This document shows positions 8,147 through 46,542 of a DNA stretch of 64,000 nucleotides, piece by piece. Numbering within the stretch: the stretch's first letter is position 1; each line of letters starts with the position of its first letter. The stretch covers positions 1 to 64,000 of the forward strand of contig JAPNUP010000138.1 in assembly GCA_026627345.1 (NCBI GenBank), written 5' to 3'. The position numbers were made by a program, and so were the translations under genes. The DNA comes from Bacillota bacterium (GTDB lineage Bacteria > Bacillota > Bacilli > Alicyclobacillales > SLC66). The notes under the pieces are model-generated. The model saw only the letters and a program-made list of their open reading frames with translations. It had not been told where the DNA came from and did no database searches.

Positions 8147-11100
8147 ATGTTAGAGGCGATCATCGGGCGGGCTGGTAGTGGCAAGACCGAGCTTTTGATC
8201 AGTAGGATCACAGCGGCTTGTGAGTTAGATCCACTAGGACCTCCGATTTGGTACGTGGTTCCGGACCACGTGACGTTTGCTATGGAAGAACGTCTGACTC
8301 GCGCTATGCGTGGCCATGCACTTCTAAGAGTGCAAGTGGTGAGTCTGCGCAGACTGGCGCGCAGTGTACTGAATCAGCTCGGCGAAGGTGAGCGTATGCC
8401 GCTCAAAGAGGCAGGGAAGTACGCACTACTAGCCGCGGTCTGCGAACAGACGCCATTTTTGTCTCTGGGACAAGCCGGATGGCCGCCTCATCTGCTTGAA
8501 AGATTGCTCAAATGGATTGAGGAGTGTCAGCGTCATCTCGTGACGCCGGCGCAACTGCGTCTGGCGAACGATGCCCTGTCGGATCATCCGGAACTGCGGA
8601 TGAAGATGGCGGATCTTGCGCAAATACTGGATGCCTATAGCCAGATGGCGGCCGGAGCGTGGATGGATTCTCTCGAACTGTTACCCGTTTTTGCAACTTG
8701 CCTCGATCGATCGTCATTGCTCAAAGGGGCAGCTGTTTACTTCGATGGGTTTGTGAGTTTTTCACCGCAAGAATGGCAAGTCATCGAAGCCCTTGGTTTA
8801 GTGGCACGTGAAGTGGCGGTCACGGTGGCGGCACCTTCCCTATATGCTGACGAAAGCGTGCGTCATAGGGCCAGTGCAAGCCTGCTGTCGCACCCATTTG
8901 CCGAAGCGATCGACATGTTGGCGCGCCTTTCTCAAATCAGTGACTCGCTCGGCATGCCCGAACCGATGATTACCGCTGTGCCGGACGATGAGTGCCCGCG
9001 ATTTGCACAATCGCCAGTACTGGCGCATCTGGAGCGGGCCTTGTATACTTCGGCGTCCGCATGGAATGCGCAGTCACACGAGGAGTCAGATGGACGCGAC
9101 GCACAACTGTATTTGGCCAGCGCTACGACAGCGGAGTCTGAGGTGGCCGGCACTGTTCGCGCACTGATCCGTCATCGCCGCGCGGGTGTCAAATGGCGTG
9201 CGCTGGCCATCATCGTCCCGCACCTCGATGACTACCGGTCACTCCTTGAAGAGGCCTTGTCTGAAGCGGGTATACCCTACTACATGGACGTGCGCATCTC
9301 GATCGAACGACACCCTTTATCGGTGTTTATCTTTAGCGCCTTGGGTCTTGCCGTGGCAAAGTCGGATGAGAAAGCACTTTGGGGATTGCTCAAGTCCGAT
9401 TTGTTTCCGGCGACTCGATTAACGATGGATACTCTGGAAAATGAGTATCTGCAGGGCCGTTGGCGACCTTTTGCAAGACAGGATGGGCAAAGTGCCAAGT
9501 CAGGGCGCGTCGATGGGCTTTTGACGTCCTTGCTGCAACCGTTTTTCGAGATCGTTCGCGAAGGCGCTTCGGTGCGCGAGATGGCTACCGCGCTTTGGTC
9601 TTTGCTCGAGCGCGCCGAGGTGGCTAAACGTTTGGATTACTTTGCTTACAAAGATGAACAAGCCGGCCGATTGCTAGATGCGCGTACCCATGAGCGAGCG
9701 TATACAGCAGTGCTAAGCACACTCGATGAACTCGTCGAAGTATTTGGCGATAAGATCTTGCCGCTCGATGTCTTTGCAAAAGCGCTACGCAGCGCGATCG
9801 GCAGTGTGGCCATCGGTGCGATTCCCGCGACCATCGATCAGGTGCTGATCACGGAGACTGCACGCATCAGAGCGATCGAGGCCGATCATGTATATGCGCT
9901 CGGCTGTGCAGACGGATCGTTTCCGGCGCGCATGAGCGAGGATGATTTACTCGCTGACAGTGAACGCAGTGTCTTGGCGCAAGTTGGGGTCAAGCTCGCT
10001 GAGCCGTCTGCCAAGAGGCAGCTCTATGAACGCTACCGTGTCTACTTGGCACTTACCCGGGCGCGGCAGAGTCTCACGTTGTCATGTCCTGCAGCGGACG
10101 CCACTGGTCGGGGAGTTACACCTTCGATGCTGCTCAGTCATATTCAAAGCTTATTTGCACCGGGCGTCGTGCATGAGATCGCTTATGCAGATGGGCTGAC
10201 GGGGACTGAAGCGGATCAACAGCTGCTCGTGACGCCCGCACGTGCAGCGCACTGGCTCGCACAAGCGGTAGTCCAGTCACAGCGGGACGGGCAATTACCT
10301 TCGCTTTGGCACGATGTCTACGAGGCGTTTGCGCAAGGGCGACTGCCGCGAGCGCATGCTTTATCTGCGCTCGCAGGGATTCGGCATAGCGTCCCCGAAC
10401 CCTACTTGTCACCTAAGATGGCACAGGCATTGTATGGCGACGAATTGCTCGGGAGCGTCTCACGTCTCGAGCGCTATGCCAGCTGCGCTTTTGCACACTT
10501 TGGCCAATATGGATTACGACTGCGCGAACGCGAACGTCTCTATGTCGATGCCGCCCGGCGCGGATCGCTGGCGCATGACGCATTGCGCTATTTTGTCTCT
10601 GCGGTTTCTAGTCAAGAGAGCGTGGACTGGGGCGAGCTCACTGATGAAGCGGTCACAGAGTTTGCCAAAGTCGCTTTTGCGCGTGCTTTGGCAGACCCGC
10701 GTGCAGCGTCTTTTCACATCTCTGCGCGGGCAAGGCAGGAGGCTTCACAGGTATATCAAGCGTTTGAGCGCGCTGTCCTCGCGCTGACAGAACATGCGCG
10801 GCGCAGCGCTTTTCGTCCGGTGCTTACGGAGGTGGGATTCGGTCGTCCGCAGGATGCGCTGGCGCCACTGGTCATTGCGCTCGAGGATGGGCGTTCGGTA
10901 CGCCTGCGTGGGCAAATCGATCGCGTAGATGTCGCGGTCGATGGCACACGGCGTTTTTACCGAATTATCGACTACAAGAGTGCGGACAAGCAGGTGCGCC
11001 TCGATTGGACCTATCAAGGACTGGAGTTGCAACTGGCTCTGTACGCGCGCGTAGTGGAGCAACTCGATCATCCTTTGCTCACAGGCGAACACGAATGGGC

Positions 11101-41443: not shown

Positions 41444-41852
41444 TCAAACTTTTTTCACCTCGAAGGTATCCTCCACCAGTCGCCACAATTGGGGAAAGGG
41501 CTGCCCCAGCACCCAGAAGCTCACGCCGCGTAATCCCATTTCATAGACGAGGTGAAACTTGGCTAAGATCGATTTGGCATCCTCATACCAAACCTCATGC
41601 TCTGTTTGGCCCACATAATAGTGATACATCGGGCTCGCGGCTAGCGGATCAAAGCGCACTGTCACGCCTCGATCAATGGCCAGGTTTTGCGCTCGCTTAG
41701 GCGAGATTCCGGCAGCCAGTACACTCGGTTTTTCGGGTAGTGTCCAGTTATATCCGTAGGTCGGAATGCCGAGCAAGATCTTGTCAGGCGGGATGGTGGA
41801 CGTGGCATAATTCAAAACCGCCCTGACTTGATTAAGGGGGGCGATGGCCATC
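41444..41852 (-). CDS. Spore cortex-lytic GH18 enzyme, C-terminal exon-like fragment (yaaH/sleL type)
   Basis: Codes for the last 135 residues of a LysM-GH18 enzyme whose N-terminal 291 residues lie at 45513-46384. From MAIAPLNQVRAVLNYA through DKILLGIPTYGYNWTLP and YEDAKSILAKF to GLRGVSFWVLGQPFPQLW it aligns with the C-terminal half of YaaH/SleL, as recalled. There is no own promoter or credible start except the ATG at 41851, which is part of the att core region. By itself it cannot fold a GH18 barrel. Intact reading frame and lack of stops argue against long-standing decay. Removal of the 3,660-bp element joins both parts in frame. Confidence 0.85.
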
Positions 41853-41862
41853 GGAGGTCCTC
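41847..41862. other. Attachment site, left (attL)
   Basis: GCCATC-GGAGGTCCTC. The 10-base core at 41853-41862 is identical to the core at 45513-45522; the 16-base block differs at one base (C here, A on the right). GAGG-T-CCTC is a dyad around a central T, as expected for the short core of a serine recombinase site. Confidence 0.8.
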
Positions 41863-41990
41863 ATGCCGGCAATCAACTACAGAGTTAGTCCCGCTATGAT
41901 CGGCTTGCCCACGTTCGACAAAGTACTGACATATTCGCTTTCGATGTCGCGATGCAGCTTTGACTACGGGCTAATTGGCGTGGGATTCGT

Positions 41991-41996
41991 TATAAT
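41991..41996 (+). promoter_or_regulatory. -10 box of the mqo promoter
   Basis: TATAAT directly before the first repeat copy. TTGACT occurs 25 bases upstream (41960), too far for a standard -35, so the promoter is incomplete or activator dependent. Confidence 0.4.
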
Positions 41997-41999
41997 ATA

Positions 42000-42098
42000 G
42001 AGACGGTTACACGGTGCTGTCGCACCACCGTCCACGGGGAGAATAAGCGGCTGGCGCCGTTATTCCGAGACGGTTACACGGTGCTGTCGCACCACCGT
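42000..42098 (+). repeat. Two 32-base direct repeats with internal hairpins
   Basis: Identical 32-base copies at 42000-42031 and 42067-42098 (period 67). Each begins GAGACGGTTAC and can fold as ACGGTG/CACCGT or, alternatively, GGTGC-TGTC-GCACC. The 35-base spacer itself folds (GAATAA-GCGGC with GCCG-TTATTC, one bulge). Located in the predicted 5' leader of mqo just after the -10 box. Confidence 0.85.
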
Positions 42099-42198
42099 TA
42101 TGCATTTTTGATCCCTTCGTTGATTGTGTGTTTATATTGTATCCGTGATGTGACGGGACTTATTTGTATCGTAAATATGGGCGATAAGGAAGGTTGCC

Positions 42199-43701
42199 AT
42201 GAGCGACATGCGACAAAAAACAGATGTGATCCTGATCGGAGCGGGGATCATGAGTGCTACTTTAGGTTCGATGCTCAAGGAGCTGGCGCCTGAGTGGGAT
42301 ATCAAGGTTTTTGAGAAACTGAGCACGCCAGGTGAAGAAAGCTCCAATGAATGGAATAATGCAGGGACTGGTCACTCAGCTTTATGCGAGCTCAACTATA
42401 CCACCGAACGATCGGACGGCTCGATGGATATCAGCAAAGCGATTGCAATTAACGAACAGTTTCAGCTCTCACGGCAATTTTGGGCGCACCTGGTCACTCA
42501 TGGTTTGATTCAACATCCGCAAGATTTTATCAGGCCACTTCCGCACATGAGTCTGGTAGCGGGGGAAGACAATGTTCGCTTCTTACGCAAGCGTTTCGCC
42601 GCGCTACAGGATCATCCTTTCTTTGAGGGGATGGCATTTTCAGAGAACCCGGACAAGTTACAGGAATGGGTGCCTCTGATTATGGAGGGCCGGTCTGTGA
42701 CGGAACCGATTGCGGCGACTAGGATTGAATCGGGCACGGATGTCAATTTTGGCGCCCTGACGCGCATGTTGTTTGCGCACTTGCAGCGCCAAGGGGTTGC
42801 TGTAAGTTACAGGCACTCTGTGGAGGATATTCGGCGACTGTCGGACGGCTCGTGGGAAGTGAAAGTGCAGGATATCGACAAGGGGACTTTTGAATATCAC
42901 ACGGCACAGTTTATTTTTATCGGTGGCGGTGGGGGAAGCCTTCCGCTCCTGCAACAGACAGGCATTCCTGAATCGAAGCACATTGGAGGCTTTCCGATCA
43001 GCGGTCTTTTCTACGTGTGCAATAACCGTGAAATGGTCGAGAAACATCATGCCAAAGTCTATGGAAAGGCGCGAGTAGGGTCCCCACCAATGTCCGTCCC
43101 ACACCTCGACACCCGTTTCATCGATAATCAGAAGACGCTCCTCTTCGGTCCGTTTGCCGGGTTTTCACCGAAGTTTTTAAAGACAGGCTCTAATATGGAT
43201 TTGCCGCGGTCTGTCAAATCCCATAACGTCGCCACTATGCTCGCAGCAGGGGTCAAAGAAATGGCTTTGACCAAGTACCTCGTGCAACAATTGATGTTGA
43301 CGAATGAGCAGCGCATGGAGGAACTTCGCGAATTTGTTCCGAATGCGAAGAGTGAAGACTGGGATGTGGTGGTCGCAGGGCAACGTGTACAAGTCATCAA
43401 AGACACCGAAGCAGGCGGCAAAGGAACGCTCCAGTTTGGCACGGAAGTGATCACCTCTGCCGATGGTTCCGTTGCCGCCCTTTTAGGTGCCTCTCCAGGC
43501 GCATCGACTGCAGTCCACGCTATGCTGGGCATTTTGCAGCGGTGTTTTCAAGAAGACTTTCCTACCTGGGAGGATAAACTAAAGAAGATGATTCCTTCCT
43601 ACGGTATGTCGCTTGTAGAGCACCCCGACTTGTACCGTGAGATTCAACAGTCGACGGCCGAAGTTCTCGGATTTGGCGAACTGCACGCGACCCACCAGTA
43701 G
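42199..43701 (+). CDS. mqo: Malate:quinone oxidoreductase
   Basis: 500 residues, full length for the family. [21 protein letters not shown] is the FAD-binding N-terminus; [23 protein letters not shown] and [13 protein letters not shown] are Mqo hallmarks, as are [14 protein letters not shown] and [13 protein letters not shown]. It is a peripheral membrane flavoenzyme oxidising malate to oxaloacetate with quinone as acceptor. It is the only metabolic gene in the recombinase element and is preceded by a repeat-containing leader. Codon use looks like the surrounding chromosome. Confidence 0.95.
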
Positions 43702-43728
43702 TTAGCCAGGCAACTGGACAATCACGCG

Positions 43729-43762
43729 CGGCATACACATCACTGAGGTGATGTGTATGCCG
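43729..43762 (+). promoter_or_regulatory. 15-bp perfect hairpin covering the start of the 64-codon ORF
   Basis: CGGCATACACATCAC (43729-43743) pairs with GTGATGTGTATGCCG (43748-43762) around TGAG. The ribosome site GAGGTG and the ATG at 43757 lie in the loop and right arm, so an RNA hairpin would hide them. As DNA it is also a perfect operator-like dyad. No T tract follows. Confidence 0.75.
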
Positions 43763-43951
43763 TCGCGACGTATTGAAGTGACTCGCGTCACGTTTGGGGA
43801 GGAACGAACGCCACAAGAACTGACCATGGCCGTAGTCCCCCTTCTTCTACAGTACCTCGATATCAGACCAACGTCTTACCAAATTTCCTATGAAGAACCT
43901 GGACCTGCACTGGAGCAAAATCAACCGCGCCTGAATCGCGAGGGAATGTAG
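43757..43951 (+). CDS. 64-residue protein preceding the recombinase; possible directionality factor
   Basis: Begins MPSRRIEVTRVTFGEERTP, six bases after GAGGTG. The stop is two bases before the recombinase ATG, so translation is probably coupled. The protein is small, with a basic N-terminus and an acidic, proline-rich C-terminus. I do not recognise a family. Large serine integrases often need a small recombination directionality factor for excision (SprB with SprA in SPbeta is an example), and the position suggests that role; this is inference. Confidence 0.6.
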   Translation: MPSRRIEVTRVTFGEERTPQELTMAVVPLLLQYLDIRPTSYQISYEEPGPALEQNQPRLNREGM

Positions 43952-43953
43952 CG

Positions 43954-45513
43954 ATGCGAAAGTGTGCGATCTACGCGCGTGTATCGGACGAATCTCAAGT
44001 CAAAGGCGAGTCGACAGAACACCAGATCAGTGTCTGTAAGGAAATTGCCCGAAGAAGGTCACTCGAATCAGGTGACACTTGGTTGACTCCGGACGAACTC
44101 GTCTATGTGGACGAGGGAATTACAGGCACAAGCTTAGTCAAACGTGCGAAAGTGCAGCGGCTACTACAGGATGCCCAAAACCATTGCTTCGAGGTGGTAT
44201 TGTTTAAAGGCATTTCGCGGTTTGCCAGAGACACCGTGGACGCGCTTTTGATGCTGCGCAACCTAATGGCTTGCGGGGTCCATGTGGTGTCCTTGGAAGA
44301 GAACTTCGATAGCCAGCGCGACAATGCAGAATTTGTGTTCACCATACACTCGGCGCTCGCCCAGGCAGAATCAGAGAAGACGGCTATTCGCGTACGCATG
44401 GGGGCTTCTCAAAAAGCACAGCAAGGCAAGTGGAATGGGAGAGCGCCGGACGGTTACGTGTTAAACTCCGATACGAAACGCTTGGAGATCGACCCTGAAT
44501 TCGGGGCGGTGATTCGCGACATCTTTACGATGTACGGGGAAGGCCATGGCGTGCGAAGTATCGCCCATATACTGAACGAAAAAGGGCTCCGTACCAAGCA
44601 AGGCAACTGGTGGACGCAGCGTCACATCGCCCGACTTTTGCGCAATCCAGCCTATGTGGGCGACGTGGCGTATGGTCGCCGTGTCTTGCGAACGTCATTT
44701 CCTGATCCAGAGGACCCCCTTAAGCGCAGTAAAGTGGTGGCAAACAACCCGGATGCAAGTGCGATCGTCATTTGCCGCGATGCGCATCCGGCACTCGTCA
44801 GCCGCTCGTTGTTTGCCACTGTCGCCGCGCGGTTACAAAGCCGCAAGCAGGAAAAAGGACAAATCGGCAAGGCGCATCTGTTGACGAAAGGATTGGCCAC
44901 TTGCAGTTGTGGCAGTAGTATGACCATTAAATACAATGGTCATGGGACCGCCTACTATCACTGTCTGGGTCAAAAGGAAAAAGGAAAGGCGTTTTGTCAA
45001 CAGCGGTACTGGCGCGCAGACGCACTCGAAGCGGCGGTCCTGCAAGCCGTCAAAGTGGCAATTGCGGACGTGGTGACACTGCAAAACATGCAAGTTCACA
45101 TACAGGTAGATGGGGGCATCGAGAGGAAGCTTCACGAGACCAAAGAACAGATTGCGGGGCTCATGCGCAAGTCTGATTTATTGTTTGATGCGTATGCCAG
45201 AGGCAACTTGTCCGAGGAGCAGTTCACTCATGTCAACCAGACTTTAAGGGCGCAAATCGCTAGTCGAAAAGGAGACGAGGAGGCTCTGTGCGTGCGGCTG
45301 AGAGATGAGAAAGAGAATTTTGGCCAAGACCTGCACGAGGGATTGCAAGTGGCGATGGATGAGCTGCTCAGTACGCGTTGCACGCGCCCTGATCTTGCGC
45401 GAAAACTGCTTCAAGTCCTGCTTAAACGCATTGTGATCACCTACACCGGGATTGAACTGTCCTATGTGTTTAAAGAACCCCCTTTGTCCGGAGGTAGTTC
45501 ATTGGCGCCATAG
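43954..45513 (+). CDS. Large serine recombinase (SpoIVCA/SprA type)
   Basis: 519 residues. The N-terminal resolvase domain is CAIYARVSDESQ with nucleophile Ser11, plus FKGISRFARDTVDALLML. The recombinase domain runs ~165-290 (GRAPDGYVLN...IAHILNEKGLRTKQGNWW...RNPAYVGDVAYG). A zinc ribbon follows with cysteines in ATCSCGSSM, YYHCLG and AFCQQ. A coiled-coil stretch lies ~385-440. It would cut and rejoin the two att cores. The stop codon TAG overlaps the first base of the right core. It is encoded opposite to the interrupted gene. Confidence 0.95.
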   Translation: MRKCAIYARVSDESQVKGESTEHQISVCKEIARRRSLESGDTWLTPDELVYVDEGITGTSLVKRAKVQRLLQDAQNHCFEVVLFKGISRFARDTVDALLMLRNLMACGVHVVSLEENFDSQRDNAEFVFTIHSALAQAESEKTAIRVRMGASQKAQQGKWNGRAPDGYVLNSDTKRLEIDPEFGAVIRDIFTMYGEGHGVRSIAHILNEKGLRTKQGNWWTQRHIARLLRNPAYVGDVAYGRRVLRTSFPDPEDPLKRSKVVANNPDASAIVICRDAHPALVSRSLFATVAARLQSRKQEKGQIGKAHLLTKGLATCSCGSSMTIKYNGHGTAYYHCLGQKEKGKAFCQQRYWRADALEAAVLQAVKVAIADVVTLQNMQVHIQVDGGIERKLHETKEQIAGLMRKSDLLFDAYARGNLSEEQFTHVNQTLRAQIASRKGDEEALCVRLRDEKENFGQDLHEGLQVAMDELLSTRCTRPDLARKLLQVLLKRIVITYTGIELSYVFKEPPLSGGSSLAP

Positions 45514-45522
45514 GAGGTCCTC
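45507..45522. other. Attachment site, right (attR)
   Basis: GCCATA-GGAGGTCCTC, with the core at 45513-45522. It contains the recombinase stop codon and, on the minus strand, the codons for GGPPMA of the interrupted hydrolase. Confidence 0.8.
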
Positions 45523-46384
45523 CGACCCAGCCCCATTCGTACGTCATGAGCATCACAAAGTCTACAAGCGAACCAAGGGTCTTATAGTCAAACGCTCCCA
45601 TCCACGCAGCACTGGGATCATCACTGGTCTTGGGCCCCATGGCGATTGAGACACTGTATCCATCTTGGTGCATCGCCTCTTGCAACTCGCGAATAAACGC
45701 ATTGTACAACGGGCGATCGGTTGGGTGCATGTGCTCGAAATCGATATTGACCCCTTTGAAGCCTTTGTTCGCCATGGTCGCTTTGGCCGCCGCAATGACC
45801 TTCTGGCGAAGCGATGCAGCGGCCAGAATCGTATGGGCCAAGTCTGAGTTAAAATTGGATCCATCGAAGTTCGTCACGCATAGCAGTGGCGCGACACCGA
45901 GCGCTGTCATGCTAGAAAGCGCCTGCTGGTCTTGCATGGCAACGAGACTGCCGTCTTGCTTGACGTGATAGCTGAAGATGGTTGCGAATGTCATGGGCTC
46001 TGACTCTTGTAGGATTTCGCTGTCTCCTGACGTGCCTGACGGAATCATGTAGCCGTTGACCTCCGCCGTGTACTTTGTGGCAATAGGAGCTGGCACAAAC
46101 AAAATCTGCCCAATCTCTAAGTAGTCGGTTACTTCTAGCCCATTGGCACCGGCCACTGCGATGACAGGCACCTTGTACTTGCGAGCAATCGTCGTGAGCG
46201 TCTCGCCCGCACCGACTGTATGATGGATCAGGGTGCTAGGCGCGCCCGGCACCATCAAGTTGACACCGGGCGTCAGCGTCGTTCCTGGCGTTTCATTGAG
46301 CGTTTGCAAAGTGGCCGCGCTGACGCCAAACGCTTGGGCTACCGTATCTAGTGTATCTCCGGTACGAGCCGTGTAGATAAACAA
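45513..46384 (-). CDS. Spore cortex-lytic GH18 enzyme, N-terminal fragment (yaaH/sleL type)
   Basis: Residues 1-291 of the reconstituted enzyme. Start is the TTG at 46384 (MFIYTARTGDTL), with GGAGG eight bases before it; GTG at 46393 lacks a site. Two LysM peptidoglycan-binding domains (~2-46 and ~52-98) precede the GH18 barrel with catalytic GVNIDFE near residues 211-217. The frame passes through the att core and, unexcised, reads on to a stop at 45470 after ~14 foreign residues, giving a truncated barrel. YaaH/SleL cleaves cortex fragments at germination and is made in the mother cell in Bacillus. Confidence 0.88.
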
Positions 46385-46454
46385 ACCTTTCACCTCCGCA
46401 ACATGATCTATAGTCAAGGTATTCGCAGGCGACCGATTTATGGCAGACGACCAA

Positions 46455-46495
46455 TAAGAAAGCGTGTACGACCGGAATGTCGGTCGCACACGCTT
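46455..46495 (-). terminator. Terminator of the SDR gene
   Basis: On the minus strand AAGCGTGTGCGACCG pairs with CGGTCGTACACGCTT (15 bp, one G-U) around a 6-base loop, followed by TCTTATT. It separates the SDR gene from the spore hydrolase. Confidence 0.65.
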
Positions 46496-46542
46496 GCCGC
46501 TTCTATATCGATTGACGCGCATAGAGAAAGGGGGGCTACGAA

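Follow-up and report, generated by a model that had tools for sequence, protein, structure and literature searches.

A hairpin overlapping a putative mother-cell promoter as a probable read-through lock on the recombinase of an element that splits a LysM-GH18 gene

In the insertion sequences IS10/Tn10 and IS50, transcripts arriving from outside fold at the element end and hide the transposase start, whereas the native transcript of the element has its 5' end within the left arm of that fold. Gene-intervening elements are known to be safeguarded by promoters and by directionality factors, and an element of this kind can persist only where the action of its recombinase is kept to the dying mother cell and never extends to the germ line. 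Elements excised in sporulation include skin, vfbin, gin, yin and SP-beta (PMC5595907, PMC10747680, PMC5025042), with small extra factors such as GirX of 42 aa and CD1234 of 72 aa (PMC5595907, PMC5025042), and a sigK prophage of Alicyclobacillus has been published (PMC13141910). For Bacillus subtilis sigG (spoIIIG), a hairpin of at least 20 pairs has been proposed that would keep read-through RNA from the spoIIG promoter untranslated, and this hairpin cannot form in RNA from sigG's own promoter (PMC5942855).

The locus considered here lies in a window of 64,000 nucleotides from an Alicyclobacillus-like member of the Bacillota (contig JAPNUP010000138.1). An insertion element of 3,660 bp (41856..45515) was found inside a LysM-GH18 gene, with the malate:quinone oxidoreductase gene mqo (42199..43701, + strand; PF06039, E 7e-235), a hairpin, a small ORF and a recombinase gene all lying between the two halves of the split gene. 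The ORF at 45470-46522 (- strand) encodes LysM and the front part of the GH18 domain and breaks off after GGPPMA; its portion outside the element, the 5' half of the gene, occupies 45516..46522 (- strand) by ORF limits, the true start probably being a TTG near 46387. The rest of the protein is encoded by the ORF at 41444-41851 (- strand), which is 79% identical over 135 aa to the gene of the congener G001. Excision in silico of the 3,660 bp at the core GGACC gave one open frame of 427 codons counted from LFIYT, and this rejoined frame could be aligned over its full length with the LysM-GH18 gene of G001, which is uninterrupted and has the same neighbours (one gene like hisD and one for a short-chain dehydrogenase, both named by resemblance). 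As in gene-intervening elements, excision thus rejoins the gene in frame, here in silico, and a serine recombinase is encoded inside. By junction comparison the cores are GGAGGACCTCC on the GH18 5' side (45508..45526, - strand) and GAGGACCTCC on the 3' side (41848..41867, - strand). GGACC was present at the break in 13 of 13 interrupted 5' ends and 15 of 15 3' ends among those listed, those of the window included; the att arms agreed at 9 of 25 positions in an ungapped comparison and, by eye, better with a one-base gap. The back half of the LysM-GH18 gene was also found near a homologous recombinase in 14 other loci (L065-L069, L071, L072, L075-L081), and as judged from these loci the element family interrupts the LysM-GH18 gene in Alicyclobacillus-like bacteria. 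The split gene, which we take to resemble YaaH/SleL, matched no sporulation-specific NCBIfam family above cut-off and is probably a spore-enzyme gene. A search of open-licence PMC papers for an element of this kind in Alicyclobacillus, or in any gene of the YaaH/SleL type, found none.

Compared with the 14 other GH18 elements, the one in the window has the reverse orientation: here the recombinase adjoins the 5' half of the gene on the opposite strand, whereas in the others it reads toward the 3' half. Two copies of GAGACGGTTACACGGTGCTGTCGCACCACCG less than 70 bp apart were also noted between the element end and mqo, within 42000-42100 of the window. In the window's own genome (G000) a second, sigK-like gene is split over two contigs (L242:2564-2950 and L243:2633-3046, both - strand), its front half adjoining an unrelated serine recombinase (L242:891-2492) with GGACAAC and CATAAGG upstream and no hairpin by eye; this arrangement suggests a second intervening element in that genome.

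The recombinase of the window (43954..45513, + strand) is a large serine recombinase of 519 aa with the domains PF00239, PF07508 and PF13408. Its closest NCBIfam matches are CcrB (E 4e-43) and XisF of the cyanobacterial fdxN element (E 2e-31), both far below the cut-offs, so that it is a member of neither family. A first scan of genome contigs with this single recombinase as query gave no match. A phage origin of the family was considered and rejected, since no relative above 30% identity was present among five viral-contig loci and no phage record reached at least 60% (541 records matched, the best listed at 29.9%). Four of the loci (L075, L072, L079, L081) have more than one recombinase of the family, two or three in a single element or region, and every copy is preceded by a promoter-hairpin block of its own.

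Ahead of the recombinase lies the small ORF of 64 codons (43757..43951, + strand), which is conserved ahead of related recombinases. In 21 of 22 loci its stop lies -4 to +10 nt from the start of the recombinase gene, where for L067-L069 an in-frame ATG overlapping the small-ORF stop was taken as the recombinase start. At L081_2 the small ORF is absent, and the block and hairpin described below sit directly on the recombinase start. The small proteins have 38-82 residues, with a shared N-terminal pattern V-x-x-V-x-Y-G, followed by a helix and a variable remainder. No family was found for them in Pfam or NCBIfam, PHROGs gave one weak match for one of 22 members, and the AlphaFold model (pLDDT 72.6, pTM 0.32), a single helix at 19-34, had no match in Foldseek. 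Silent changes were in no clear excess over replacing changes in close pairs of the small ORF, so what points to selection on the peptide is its shared N-terminal pattern only. From size and coupling one may guess that the small protein is a recombination directionality factor comparable to GirX or CD1234.

Between mqo and the recombinase, a dyad CGGCATACACATCAC-TGAG-GTGATGTGTATGCCG was found at 43729-43762, with a left arm at 43729..43743 and a right arm at 43748..43762 (+ strand), each of 15 nt and perfectly complementary to the other, separated by the loop TGAG at 43744..43747. The Shine-Dalgarno-like sequence GAGGTGAT (43745..43752, + strand) and the ATG of the small ORF at 43757 are contained in the loop and right half, so that the predicted hairpin covers both, as it does across the 23 loci discussed below. 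A sequence-only reading of the stretch had claimed a 15-bp perfect stem with a 4-base loop over the ribosome binding site and start of a 64-codon ORF ending two bases before the recombinase; the coordinates bear out both points, the stop TAG lying at 43949-43951 and the recombinase ATG at 43954. In the predicted RNA fold of 43702-43800 the stem is extended by flanking GCG/CGC with one bulged base, and the fold energy was -46.5 kcal/mol, which lies at z -6.14 relative to 200 shuffled sequences with a mean of -29.06 (sd 2.84). Over the whole window, four perfect stems of at least 12 bp with loops of 3-8 were found, the dyad being the second longest, against a mean of 0.025 in 40 Markov-1 simulated windows. 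A chance palindrome was ruled out, as a stem of 15 bp was reached in 0 of the 40. The hairpin begins 27 nt after the stop codon of mqo and could on that account be thought to belong to that gene, as a terminator or as a stabiliser of the 3' end of its mRNA. It is, however, not followed by a T run, which rules out a terminator, no + strand terminator-like site was among the matches listed between mqo and the small ORF, and the hairpin is kept in loci where the upstream gene differs or sits on the other strand; a role for mqo is hence hardly credible.

The upstream regions of 30 recombinase genes were inspected, namely that of the window and 29 relatives of about 40-65% identity, and a common block was found in 23 of them. 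It consists, in order, of GGCAAGTGGACAANC, a spacer, GCATANNCAT, a short run of bases that differs between loci, GAGGTGATG and the start codon, the Shine-Dalgarno sequence and start codon pairing back onto the GCATA of the block. Twenty of the 23 loci were picked by a search with CATANNCAT and three (L067-L069) were added by eye, so that the invariance of the letters of CATANNCAT is partly by construction. In the window the alignment places a conserved GGACA box, GCAACTGGACAATC, at 43710..43723 (+ strand), SpoIIID-like by resemblance, and a proposed mother-cell -10, CATACACAT, at 43732..43740 (+ strand) within the left arm; CATA is present in 23 of the 23 aligned loci, again partly by construction. 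The distance from GGACA to CATA is constant in 22 of the 23, and that from CATA to the start codon runs from 25 to 29 nt. The same hairpin, at -14 to -19 kcal/mol, was found in four remnant elements (L226, L227, L230, L231). In the remaining seven recombinase loci (L082-L088) the search did not find the block. Four of these (L084, L086-L088) have a GCATA about 20-30 nt before the small ORF, with no hairpin of the family kind by eye. It should also be noted that at L083 (recombinase at 10426) only 14 nt separate the C of CATA from the ATG of the small ORF, which has no Shine-Dalgarno sequence; this message is perhaps leaderless, which would be another escape from read-through translation.

The -10 of sigma-E promoters is of the CATACANT kind, and the SpoIIID consensus in B. 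subtilis is WWRRACARNY. Compared with the former, the CATA of GCATANNCAT matches and the final T is one base late; compared with the latter, GGACAANC fits RRACARNY while the WW positions mostly do not. A sigma-E -35, which contains ATA (PMC3789822), was not found at the usual spacing, the GGACA box being there instead. Because of this and of the late T the block was not filed as a sigma-E promoter, and of the earlier proposal that the left arm holds a sigma-E type -10 only the CATA-type -10 was retained. For a wider comparison 59 genomes belonging to the order were searched with a model of the block built from sequence without base pairs (R2). Its hits outside the recombinase family lay mostly ahead of ORF starts, and the 26 examined at E<=0.1 comprised 11 CotJC-like genes (presumably manganese catalases), seven TM2-like membrane protein genes (a label assigned by eye), seven other small ORFs and one site with no ORF. 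The hit in the window's own genome (L224) precedes a gene matching PF05067. In B. subtilis cotJC is induced by sigma-E (PMC10458515). A similar arrangement was seen at sigK, where TGTCC-N5-GCATA was found ahead of the gene in 24 of 30 relatives, G000 included, this box being GGACA in reverse direction ahead of a CATA-type -10; the permuted control patterns for this search (7 hits) overlap the true pattern and were not used. Of 31 genomes 27 have a spoIIID gene, and G000 has one. In B. subtilis the targets activated by SpoIIID include sigK as well as spoIVCA, which encodes the recombinase of skin (PMC517825). Matches to the GGACA-GCATA pattern in the window's own genome were too few to use (6, against 3 for the reversed control). 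Since R2 finds cotJC-like genes and since the sigK promoters look alike, the block is suggestive of a mother-cell promoter of the SpoIIID-assisted kind, with the left arm probably serving as its -10.

To what extent the two arms depend on one another was judged from their variation over the 23 loci. For the NN bases of CATANNCAT, 31 of the 38 cognate cells held a pair, against 21.0 (sd 2.3) in permutations, none of 20,000 of which was as high; this count covers 19 loci, with L067_1, L068_1, L069_1 and L081_2 left out. The duplex energies of cognate arms over all 23 loci summed to -382.8 kcal/mol, against -293.4 (sd 15.1) for swapped arms (0 of 20,000 as low), and after removal of five near-duplicates to -310.0 against -239.3 (sd 13.4). 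A locus's own left arm beat the average foreign arm in 20 of 23 (not in L067, L068 and L071). The alignment covariation score was 0.216, against 0.137 (sd 0.017) for shuffles with 0 of 500 as high, and it fell to 0.053-0.118 when the partner was slid by 1-3 columns. All of these permutation tests are inflated by the relatedness of the loci. On the recombinase tree, changes at the two variable positions fall on 15 and 14 branches and so do not represent one inherited event. Count-type measures were not above shuffles (doubly changed pairs 397/500, pair types 158/500), and RNAalifold gave no consensus structure for the 23-sequence alignment. Folds were predicted individually in all 23 loci, at -9.9 to -28.0 kcal/mol.

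It could be argued from part of these results that the pairing is functionless, CATA and the TATG at the start codon being complementary by nature and the rest due to chance or drift. In the 19 loci the outer pairs (p 0.12) and the inner pairs 9-10 (p 0.52) showed no excess over permutations, and slight pairing is also seen in blocks that precede other genes: for 24 non-family blocks against their own ribosome binding sites the value was -279.7 vs -248.1 (sd 13.4; p 0.012), a weak signal from related loci that was most striking in L273 and L281 and implies that arm pairing is not confined to recombinases. Against this stand the strong covariation at the variable positions 4 and 5, the cost of about 90 kcal/mol in total when arms are swapped over the 23 loci, and the 15-bp perfect stem, which is not expected by chance, and we regard a functionless pairing as very improbable. 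Symmetric binding by a protein would also give covariation of half-sites, and a perfect 15-bp palindrome on a -10 has the classic layout of a DNA operator, in this case one through which a dimeric protein, be it the small protein, the recombinase or some regulator of the host, would repress or activate the promoter. An operator for the small protein had been offered as the alternative in the sequence-only reading. The arms, however, tolerate G-U in place of Watson-Crick pairs, for example U-G where the start codon begins, seen in 8 of the 23 loci, which breaks DNA symmetry, and the spacing of the arms varies by 4 nt, as given by the distances from CATA to the start codon, which would turn the half-sites against each other. 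Both properties are natural for RNA and awkward for the operator of a dimer, and the operator is accordingly disfavoured and considered unlikely. Maintenance of the arm pairing as RNA, by covariation over 23 related loci, is the reading that these data support.

It is proposed, as the likely explanation of the dyad, that it acts as a lock against read-through, under which RNA from the operon's own promoter would be translated, RNA from upstream would be silenced and the recombinase would be confined to the mother cell. The left arm would be the -10 of the recombinase operon's own mother-cell promoter, and the right arm the ribosome binding site and start of its first ORF; with the left arm in that role only read-through RNA would fold. 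RNA from upstream, here from mqo, the would-be source of read-through 27 nt away, would hold both arms and fold, hiding the start of the small ORF. The recombinase would be silenced together with the small ORF, as the latter ends two bases before it. RNA from the operon's own promoter would have its 5' end roughly 13 nt beyond the C of CATA, at 43744-43746, that is in the loop; a start there would give a native RNA that begins with the Shine-Dalgarno sequence, lacks the left arm and is translated. With the left arm removed the remaining RNA folded at only -3.6 to 0 kcal/mol in 23 of 23 loci. The initial suggestions that upstream RNA would fold and shut both genes, and that RNA started inside the left arm could not fold, are thus in line with the comparison over the 23 loci. 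The predicted start resembles in its spacing that of a C. difficile directionality-factor gene under sigma-E and SpoIIID, which is transcribed from a position 14 bp ahead of its start codon (PMC5025042). In 15 of 22 loci the nearest upstream ORF reads in the same direction (ORFs called mechanically), which makes read-through possible and no more.

A fold this stable over the Shine-Dalgarno sequence and start codon might otherwise be a thermosensor or ligand switch on the operon's own RNA, transcribed from a promoter further upstream, and many hosts of these elements are, we assume, thermophiles. The left arm is, however, overlapped by the promoter-like block at a fixed distance, and no other + strand promoter-like match was listed between mqo and the ORF in a comparison with the sigma-70 consensus. 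A stem of -28 kcal/mol would moreover be a poor thermosensor, and the stabilities range from -9.9 to -28, so that a switch is held to be quite unlikely. Under the proposed lock, the recombinase would be active only in the mother cell, and its excision of the element there, in sporulation, would rejoin the LysM-GH18 gene. The hairpin is likely a fail-safe against the element excising itself at the wrong time. A lock tying translation to the origin of the transcript would add a further layer of safeguard and would explain the tolerance of the element for active neighbours such as mqo.

The same block also precedes cotJC-like genes at L281, L273, L263, L286 and L279, whose leaders fold back onto the block at -19 to -30 kcal/mol. 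A promoter-encoded lock general to the mother-cell genes of this order, used by both the recombinase family and cotJC, is a tentative reading that we would not favour at present. If it were true, the -10 of a SpoIIID-type promoter would be the complement of the gene's own Shine-Dalgarno sequence and start, and the gene would be translatable only from RNA begun at that promoter.

In kind, the mechanism is known from B. subtilis sigG and from IS10 and IS50. With IS10 and IS50 the locus shares a fold of outside transcripts that hides a start; it differs in that those folds serve transposases at element ends, whereas here a serine recombinase inside the element is concerned, coupled to a small ORF and served by what would be a developmental promoter. 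As in sigG, a sporulation gene would carry a large hairpin over its ribosome binding site only in read-through RNA (PMC5942855). Unlike sigG, a sigma-factor gene under forespore sigma-F/G, the gene here is the recombinase of a mobile element with a promoter of mother-cell type, the left arm would be the -10 itself, and covariation is seen over a family. The locus resembles skin, vfbin, gin, yin and SP-beta in its split gene, which is probably of the sporulation type, the serine recombinase inside, the small factor and a short shared junction core; it differs from them in the gene interrupted, LysM-GH18 being absent from the lists of interrupted genes consulted, and in that excision here was carried out in silico. 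What appears to be new is a lock on an intervening element of the sporulation type, in which the left arm is the -10, the arms covary and a wider use is possible.
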